NCBI RefSeq assembly: GCF_900142035.1
Contig: NZ_FQZI01000003.1
Coordinates: 1-64,000, forward strand
DNA: 64,000 nt
Source: Flavobacterium terrae
GTDB taxonomy: Bacteria; Bacteroidota; Bacteroidia; Flavobacteriales; Flavobacteriaceae
Reading direction: 5' to 3'
Under the pieces are notes generated by a model. It saw only the letters and a list, made by a program, of their open reading frames with translations, ran no database searches and was not told the DNA's origin. Below are positions 6,042 to 7,780 of the stretch, in pieces (the first letter of the stretch is position 1; the number at the start of each line of letters is the position of its first letter). The position numbers and the translations under genes were made by a program.

Positions 6042-7780
6042 TTATAAATCCAAATCAAACATTTTTTTAAGAAGTTCTAGAGCGGGATTTATTTCTTTTA
6101 AGCGATTGTATTTTTCTTCAACTGTGAATGCTTTTTTGCTTTCAATAGCTTCATTAATAATAATTTCTATTGTAATGTTGTGGTTGTGAAGTTTACCTCT
6201 TAAGTAACCTAATAAATCATGCTTTTCACCATCAAAGTCAATTTTTGAGCTTTCATTTGGTAATTCATGGTAAATTGTTGTGCCTTCAAGTTTAGGATCA
6301 TTTATCAATAACAAAGATTCTAAAATTTTATATCCTTTGTTGCCTAATTTTTGAGCATACTTTATCCATTGCTCCTGCATTTGAGTTTCAGTAAATGGCT
6401 CAGTAGGTAAATCTTCGTGATGTTTTTGTTCAGGTTTTAATTGTGCTTCAAGCTCTCTCTTTGCACGAATACTTGATAATGACAGTGCAGAAACCTTTGG
6501 CTGATTTGAAACAGGAGCTTGATTTATAGGGGTTTCAACTGGTTTTTGTACAACTTCGTTTTTTGTTGGAATTTCTGATTTTTCATCAACTATTGTAACT
6601 TCAGCATTATTTTGAGTTTGTGTTGTTACAGTTGAAGGTTGAGTTTTTACTTCAGTAATTGAATAGCCTGAATTCCTAAAATACGTTGGAGGAATTATAA
6701 AGGACTTAGCTTTTTTTTTTCTCCATCAAAAGTGATAGAGGCAAGTTGCATTAAACATAATTCAACTAATAATCGTTGATTTTGTGAAGCTTTATATTTT
6801 AAGTCGCAATCGTTTGCTAAATCAATTCCTTGTAATAAAAACTCTTGAGAAGCTTTTTGTGATTGTTCACCATATAATTTTTGAGCATGTTCTCCAGCTT
6901 CAAGTAAGGATAAAGTTGCAGGGTTTTTACAAACTAATAAATCTCTAAAGTGTGAAGCTAGTCCTGCAATAAAATGATGTCCATCAAACCCTTTAGCCAA
7001 AATATCATTGTAAGCTAAAAGCAAATCAGGTATTTTATTTTCAAGAATTAGATTAGTAACATTTATATAGTAATCAAAATCTAAAACATTTAAATTTTCG
7101 GTTACCGCTTGTCTTGTCAAGTTATTACCACAATATGAAACAACTCTATCAAAAATAGATAAAGCATCACGCATTGCACCATCAGCTTTTTGAGCAATAA
7201 TGTGTAAAGCATCATCTTCAAAAGAAACTCCTTGGCTTTGTGCTACTTCAGCAAGGTGTTCTTTAGCATCTTTAACTGTAATTCTTTTAAAATCAAAAAT
7301 TTGACAACGTGATAAAATCGTCGGTATAATTTTATGTTTTTCGGTAGTTGCTAATATAAAAATAGCATGTCTTGGTGGTTCTTCTAATGTTTTTAAAAAT
7401 GCATTAAAAGCAGCTTGAGACAACATATGTACCTCATCAATTATATATACTTTGTATTTACCTGTTTGAGGCGGAATTCTAACTTGATCAATTAGATTTC
7501 GAATATCGTCAACAGAGTTATTTGATGCAGCATCTAATTCAAAAACATTAAATGCAAAATCCTCATTTGGATCATCATAACCTTCTTGATTGATTTTACG
7601 AGCTAAAATACGTGCGCAAGTTGTTTTTCCAACTCCACGAGGCCCAGTAAATAATAAAGCTTGTGCTAGATGATTGTTTTCAATGGCGTTTAATAAGGTA
7701 TTGGTAATAGCTTGCTGTCCCACAACATCTTTAAATGTTTGTGGACGGTATTTACGTGCCGATACTATAAACTGTTCCAT
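6042..7780 (-). CDS. dnaX: DNA polymerase III subunit tau (dnaX, read through a -1 frameshift)
   Basis: The clamp-loader subunit is encoded in two overlapping frames. The first (7780-6695) carries the AAA+ ATPase: Walker A GPRGVGKTT at about residues 46-54, Walker B YIIDEVHML, and the SRC motif of sensor 1. The second frame is open without a stop from about 6713 to 6042. It encodes a proline/glutamine-rich linker and a conserved C-terminal domain ending with NPALELLKKMFDLDL, as in Bacteroidetes tau. A -1 shift on the A run at 6711-6720 joins them into a 579-residue protein. The four zinc-binding cysteines usual after Walker A in other bacteria are absent. Either frameshifting is programmed or one A is missing from the assembly. 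A promoter is seen at 7797-7827. Confidence 0.85.
6695..7780 (-). CDS. dnaX: DNA polymerase III subunit gamma-like product (unshifted dnaX frame)
   Basis: Without a frameshift, translation from the ATG at 7780 ends at a stop at 6697-6695 after 361 residues. The product has the ATPase domain, lid and oligomerisation domain but lacks the linker and C-terminal polymerase/helicase-binding part. This matches what the E. coli gamma subunit is to tau. The last seven residues (KKKLSPL) come from the alternative frame after the A run. If the A run is really eleven bases long, this product would not exist and only the 579-residue protein would be made. Confidence 0.6.
   Translation of the reverse strand: MEQFIVSARKYRPQTFKDVVGQQAITNTLLNAIENNHLAQALLFTGPRGVGKTTCARILARKINQEGYDDPNEDFAFNVFELDAASNNSVDDIRNLIDQVRIPPQTGKYKVYIIDEVHMLSQAAFNAFLKTLEEPPRHAIFILATTEKHKIIPTILSRCQIFDFKRITVKDAKEHLAEVAQSQGVSFEDDALHIIAQKADGAMRDALSIFDRVVSYCGNNLTRQAVTENLNVLDFDYYINVTNLILENKIPDLLLAYNDILAKGFDGHHFIAGLASHFRDLLVCKNPATLSLLEAGEHAQKLYGEQSQKASQEFLLQGIDLANDCDLKYKASQNQRLLVELCLMQLASITFDGEKKKLSPL
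6710..6720 (-). promoter_or_regulatory. Slippery A-run in dnaX, possible programmed -1 frameshift site
   Basis: On the minus strand ten A (6720 to 6711) are followed by G (6710). In the reading frame this reads GAA AAA AAA AAG, so it contains A AAA AAG, the same heptamer used in E. coli dnaX. A 6-bp inverted repeat (aattcc / ggaatt, plus strand 6671-6696) with a 14-base loop starts about 13 bases downstream. GGAG lies just 5' of the run. Long A runs can also slip during transcription, as in Thermus dnaX. Confidence 0.6.

Follow-up and report, generated by a model that had tools for sequence, protein, structure and literature searches.

The dnaX gene of Escherichia coli carries the heptamer A_AAA_AAG at the gamma/tau junction, where a -1 ribosomal shift, stimulated by a Shine–Dalgarno (SD)-like element and a stem-loop, gives rise to gamma (PMC3711429). 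In Thermus thermophilus, RNA polymerase slips on a run of nine A, stops are found close by in both non-zero frames, and gamma and tau are obtained 1:1 from the one gene (PMC5009743, PMC1088944). Another arrangement is that of the two-ORF dnaX genes grouped in a GeneTack cluster by Antonov et al. in 2013 (PMC3711429); nine of the 17 genes have an A10 run, for which polymerase slippage was proposed, and Flavobacterium may already be among these A10 genera. A 2016 review (PMC5009743) treats dnaX genes with such reversed logic as ribosomal and names a candidate in Chlorobium that has stimulators. In Blochmannia vafer and B. floridanus, dnaX is broken in a poly-A tract, and slippage was proposed to restore tau (2010, PMC3017870), and in Shigella mxiE slippage joins two ORFs into a longer protein (PMC1088944). 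A further paper mentions dnaX among symbiont genes and, in its accessible portion, says nothing about the dnaX frame (PMC3971599). A search of titles and abstracts, with subscription journals mostly outside its reach, found none on a split dnaX in Flavobacterium.

Here we analyze the dnaX gene contained in a 64,000-nucleotide stretch of Flavobacterium terrae DNA (the window). The gene is split at an A10 run, where RNA polymerase probably slips to yield both gamma and tau, and most of the Bacteroidota genes that we examined retain at least nine A there. Having a stop at the junction, a tail in the -1 frame and a poly-A run kept in relatives, it belongs to the two-ORF type already described, followed here over a wider range; the reversed gamma/tau logic, too, is already published as a type (PMC3711429, PMC5009743). 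As in the genes of Antonov et al., the zero frame ends near the run and tau requires a -1 shift at the DNA level. However, the retention of the run in single-frame relatives, the repeated switches of the default and the codon with a hidden stop are not described in the accessible part of that paper.

The likeness to T. thermophilus consists of an A-run of at least nine, the closure of both tail-less frames near it and, presumably, the making of gamma and tau from one gene by polymerase slippage. In T. thermophilus, though, the templated frame leads to tau and slippage to gamma, whereas here gamma is templated and tau would result from one additional A. With E. coli, the gene shares A_AAA_AAG at the junction, but we found no conserved stem and the shifted product is tau. 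The Blochmannia break is situated downstream of the gamma/tau junction, in the part found only in tau, whereas ours is at the junction; mxiE differs in being another gene, encoding another protein, and in having a run of U.

The dnaX locus of Flavobacterium terrae

All the features of the locus lie on the minus strand. The first ORF (6695..7780) begins with the ATG at 7780 and encodes 361 amino acids, comprising the AAA+ clamp-loader part (Pfam PF13177 and PF22608); it scores above the cut-off of TIGR02397 (dnaX_nterm) and represents the default, gamma-like product. The A10 slippery run (6711..6720) has GGAG before it and G after it. Around the run the zero frame reads GGA GAA AAA AAA AAG CTA AGT CCT TTA TAA, closing four codons past the A10 with a TAA (6695..6697) that overlaps the tail-frame codons ATA ATT (6698–6693). 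The -1 frame continues after the run as GCT AAG TCC TTT ATA ATT and remains open for 222 codons, the tau tail (6042..6710), up to a TAA at 6044–6042; the two frames joined predict a tau of 579 amino acids. The third frame, which would be reached with A9 or A12, is closed by a TAA at 6706..6708, so the two frames without the tail close after four and zero codons.

These observations bear out the core of the initial annotation, namely a dnaX frame broken at the A10 with a stop at 6695 after 361 codons, a -1 frame open to 6042 and carrying the tau tail, and the presence of A_AAA_AAG, which we find in the zero frame. We also concur with its view that tau needs recoding and that the unshifted frame gives a gamma-like product, opposite to what is found in E. 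coli and Thermus.

On NF011531, the NCBIfam gamma/tau model of 614 positions, the first ORF aligned to positions 1–370 and the tail to 418–613; the two halves separately scored 627 and 82 bits, each below the curated cut-off of 685. When the tail was compared with 127 other Flavobacterium tails, the differences at codon positions 1, 2 and 3 of the -1 frame were 0.37, 0.28 and 0.57. Because of this codon-position pattern and of the NF011531 match, the tail is coding. For its residues 104–189 (6144–6401), modelling gave, with good confidence, a KH-like domain that bears a weak likeness to DnaA domain I and to DciA.

Among the 120 matches listed, out of 7919, for public proteins near 6698–7780, 113 are 357–404 amino acids long and lack the tail, and seven have 565–598 amino acids; the named entries in this set are called gamma/tau or similar. 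The F. terrae genome (3.16 Mb, 19 contigs) contains 24 separate runs of A10 or longer, counting both strands.

The break in Flavobacterium and its family

Aligning dnaX of related species, as the initial annotation had suggested, attested to a wide presence of the break and of the A-run in Flavobacterium. A dnaX match was found in 136 of 140 Flavobacterium genomes: in 124 the frame ends at about gamma length, in nine it is open, and in three (G097, G123 and G144) the sequence is cut before the site. In the one-contig genomes of the genus, dnaX was broken in 17 cases out of 17. The nearest relative found, itself a one-contig genome (G322, locus L082), has a first ORF 99% identical to that of the window, an A10 and a tail in the -1 frame.

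Among the other genera of the family, each sampled with one genome, dnaX was broken at the junction in 24 of 134 matching genomes. The family table contained matches for 136 of 140 genomes, 134 of which belong to other genera; 26 showed a short frame, and two were set aside as unjudgeable (G177, at a contig edge, and G224, partial), leaving the 24. A long A-run occurs in 23 of these broken genes, the exception being L321. Both the genus and the family fractions were taken from the full tables.

Close relatives are thus far from all having a single uninterrupted frame. The alternative that one A is missing from the sequence, also considered in the initial annotation, appears very unlikely given the one-contig relative and the 17 broken one-contig genomes.

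Conservation of the run, the closed frames and the default

The site was read in 429 Bacteroidota dnaX loci, 419 of which were unique after the removal of ten duplicate named loci. At the junction, 401 of the 419 had at least nine consecutive A (genus set, 78/78; named, 70/70; family, 134/136; order, 49/53; class, 57/62; phylum, 13/20), bearing in mind that many of our counts rest on shared descent because the sequences are related. Elsewhere in the same genes, we counted ten such runs in 726,114 coding bases; the junction run is beyond chance. A10 was, overall, the commonest length in both main modes (tail in the zero or in the -1 frame). The run starts in codon phase 1 in 147 of 147 genes of the Flavobacterium set, and in phases 1, 2 and 0, respectively, in 117, 6 and 9 genes of the family and in 59, 30 and 27 order, class and phylum genes that have it. 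Because the starting phase varies in this way outside the Flavobacterium set, the run seems to be conserved at the level of the DNA sequence, rather than for its codons or the peptide. In a reduced, 0.3-Mb genome of the same order (L390), dnaX consists of a first ORF of gamma length (345 codons) alone and there is no long A-run at the site, as if tau and the switch had been lost together.

The frame beyond the run, on the other hand, is not conserved. In the 419 unique genes, the tail lies 199 times in the zero frame, 200 times in the -1 frame (198 of these genes having the A9+ run) and ten times in the +1 frame; seven unresolved genes and three with an early stop were left out of the mode tests, and the fractions in the order, class and phylum sets are not population rates because those loci were partly picked for being broken. 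Parsimony on a FastTree protein tree of 392 genes gave at least 55 changes in total, including 28–35 from tau-default to -1, 10–17 back and ten to +1; these figures are rough, as they come from one such tree.

Within the smallest clade holding all the genus rows, 130 of 142 genes are of the -1 type and ten are single-frame. The latter arose in different ways, with A11 in L334 and L339, and with base changes following an intact A10 in L015, L333 and L335–L338. Conversely, L078 and L292 appear to have become two-ORF through changes just before the run. One of the +1 genes (L315, genome G187) comes from a one-contig genome. The two +1 genes of the Flavobacterium set have unusual run lengths, A12 in L348 and A9 in L200, and may be errors. 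L200 is from Flavobacterium sp. YO12, in which A9 in place of A10 puts the tail in the +1 frame; this could reflect a fault in assembly or genuine variation in run length.

Of 395 genes with the run, 384 have both tail-less frames closed within nine codons (the 18 genes with runs shorter than nine were left out of the off-frame tests), as compared with 47–72% closing of a single frame at random sites in the same tails. The telling test is the third frame, to which a -1 ribosomal shift gives no access, because two-ORF genes have one closing frame by definition. It was shut in 197 of the 198 -1 genes with the run and, of the 187 tau-default genes, in 178; for the -1 genes of Flavobacterium alone, closure of the third frame within nine codons was seen in 128 of 129.

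In Flavobacteriaceae, the ATA ATT codons of an I-I-P motif contain the out-of-frame TAA. This hidden stop is formed in 225 of the 237 genes of the genus, named and family sets that have the motif (43 of 280 genes do not), the first codon being ATA in 214 of the 237 and GTA in 11; upstream, ATA accounts for 16–21% of Ile codons. In each of the 12 motif genes that lack the hidden stop, that frame is already closed further upstream by another stop. Eight of them are Flavobacterium genes with AAG TAG, which probably form one clade, so that the 12 exceptions represent few independent events.

Proposed polymerase slippage and other possible routes to tau

Two candidate stimulators flank the run. The stem-loop (6671..6696) is indeed 13 bases downstream of the heptamer, as initially annotated, but comprises seven base pairs (6696–6690 with 6677–6671) instead of six, and we judge it incidental on the basis of pairing and folding comparisons. 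In the window, this stretch folds no better than its shuffles (z –0.32). Among 111 Flavobacterium two-ORF genes with the motif, all seven pairs are formed in the window alone, and the commonest number is three of seven; across the genus, the 60 bases downstream had a mean z of 0.07 against codon-shuffled controls (n = 127). The GGAG, too, is present just upstream (6721..6724), as part of the codons GGA GAA, but we regard it as coding only: it is unlikely to act as an SD stimulator, because ribosomes of Bacteroidia do not recognize SD sequences (PMC9976891).

We propose that RNA polymerase would slip on the A10 run during transcription, as opposed to the ribosome during translation. A transcript with A10 would then give gamma, ending at the TAA hidden in ATAATT, a transcript with A11 would join the frames into the full-length tau, and transcripts with A9 or A12 would end at once at the third-frame stop. 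Both proteins would be made, and slippage would be frequent, affecting perhaps a third to a half of the transcripts; a lower rate would have made the many switches of the default costly.

Slippage of this kind, as in Thermus, seems likelier than -1 ribosomal frameshifting, because the stem is not conserved, the GGAG is unlikely to act and ten genes carry the tail in the +1 frame, where a -1 shift by the ribosome could not reach it. It is also suggested by the closing of the frame that such a shift does not visit and by the persistence of the run in -1 genes outside Flavobacterium, most of which have no in-frame heptamer. In Flavobacterium, 124 of 129 -1 genes have the heptamer A_AAA_AAG in the zero frame, but this is no general rule: the same holds for only 6 of 19 such genes elsewhere in the family and for 12 of 52 at greater distance, the other 13 and 40 lacking it in that frame. 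The near-constancy of the heptamer within the genus nevertheless speaks for ribosomal shifting there, as do the dominance of the -1 direction over +1 (200 genes against ten) and the treatment of reversed dnaX in the 2016 review. Strong downstream folding (z < –2), moreover, is slightly commoner after the run than in controls (6.3% versus 2.4%, n = 127). The only lysine tRNA found was tRNA-Lys(UUU) (37 tRNA genes, 25 loci scanned of 51 matches), and a DNA search of the F. terrae genome returned no other lysine-like tRNA, a situation that, as in E. coli, makes ribosomal shifting possible. Finally, among 385 relatives, the base after the run is G in 170 of 198 -1 genes but in only 57 of the 187 tau-default ones; C takes that place in 2 and 43, respectively. 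This bias is not predicted by pure slippage and might point to a contribution of the ribosome, or to slippage being influenced by the base that follows. Given the in-frame heptamer, the single tRNA-Lys and the G after the run, some ribosomal shifting in Flavobacterium is possible; that -1 programmed frameshifting on A_AAA_AAG is what makes tau in the genus, with or without some polymerase slippage, we consider rather unlikely.

It is very improbable that gamma is the only DnaX product and that the tail is a separate protein made by re-initiation. An ATG at 6380 does open a 112-codon ORF inside the tail, and the prevalence of entries stopping at about gamma length among the 120 database matches listed would fit such a view; but the tail is a direct continuation past the run, where no start codon occurs; it also shows codon constraint and is fused in one frame with the first ORF in 199 unique relatives. 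That the break reflects a decaying pseudogene or a sequencing error is scarcely credible. Homopolymers are error-prone, and some single genes with an odd run length, such as the A9 of L200, may be errors; as the source of the break in the window, however, sequencing error is very unlikely because the break is common to relatives, both in Flavobacterium and, at a long A-run in all but one of the broken genes, in the rest of the family. The codon constraint retained by the tail argues against decay, and so does the weakness of other dnaX-like matches in the genome (at most 51.9 bits versus 802, with three of the four matches listed).

Returning to polymerase slippage, we lean slightly toward a broader reading, in which Bacteroidota dnaX would be a polymerase-stutter switch: the A-run, of about ten, would set the gamma:tau ratio, the frame beyond it would be near-neutral, with the default flipping dozens of times, and selection would act on run length and on the hidden stops that close the two other frames. 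Slippage predicts A11 in a large share of the transcripts. A practical aspect is that the database proteins listed near the window dnaX mostly lack the tau tail. The need for gamma in E. coli has long been disputed (PMC5009743). If a slippery run and two shut frames have been maintained while the default changed many times, as inferred here, this would constitute evolutionary evidence that both forms are wanted.
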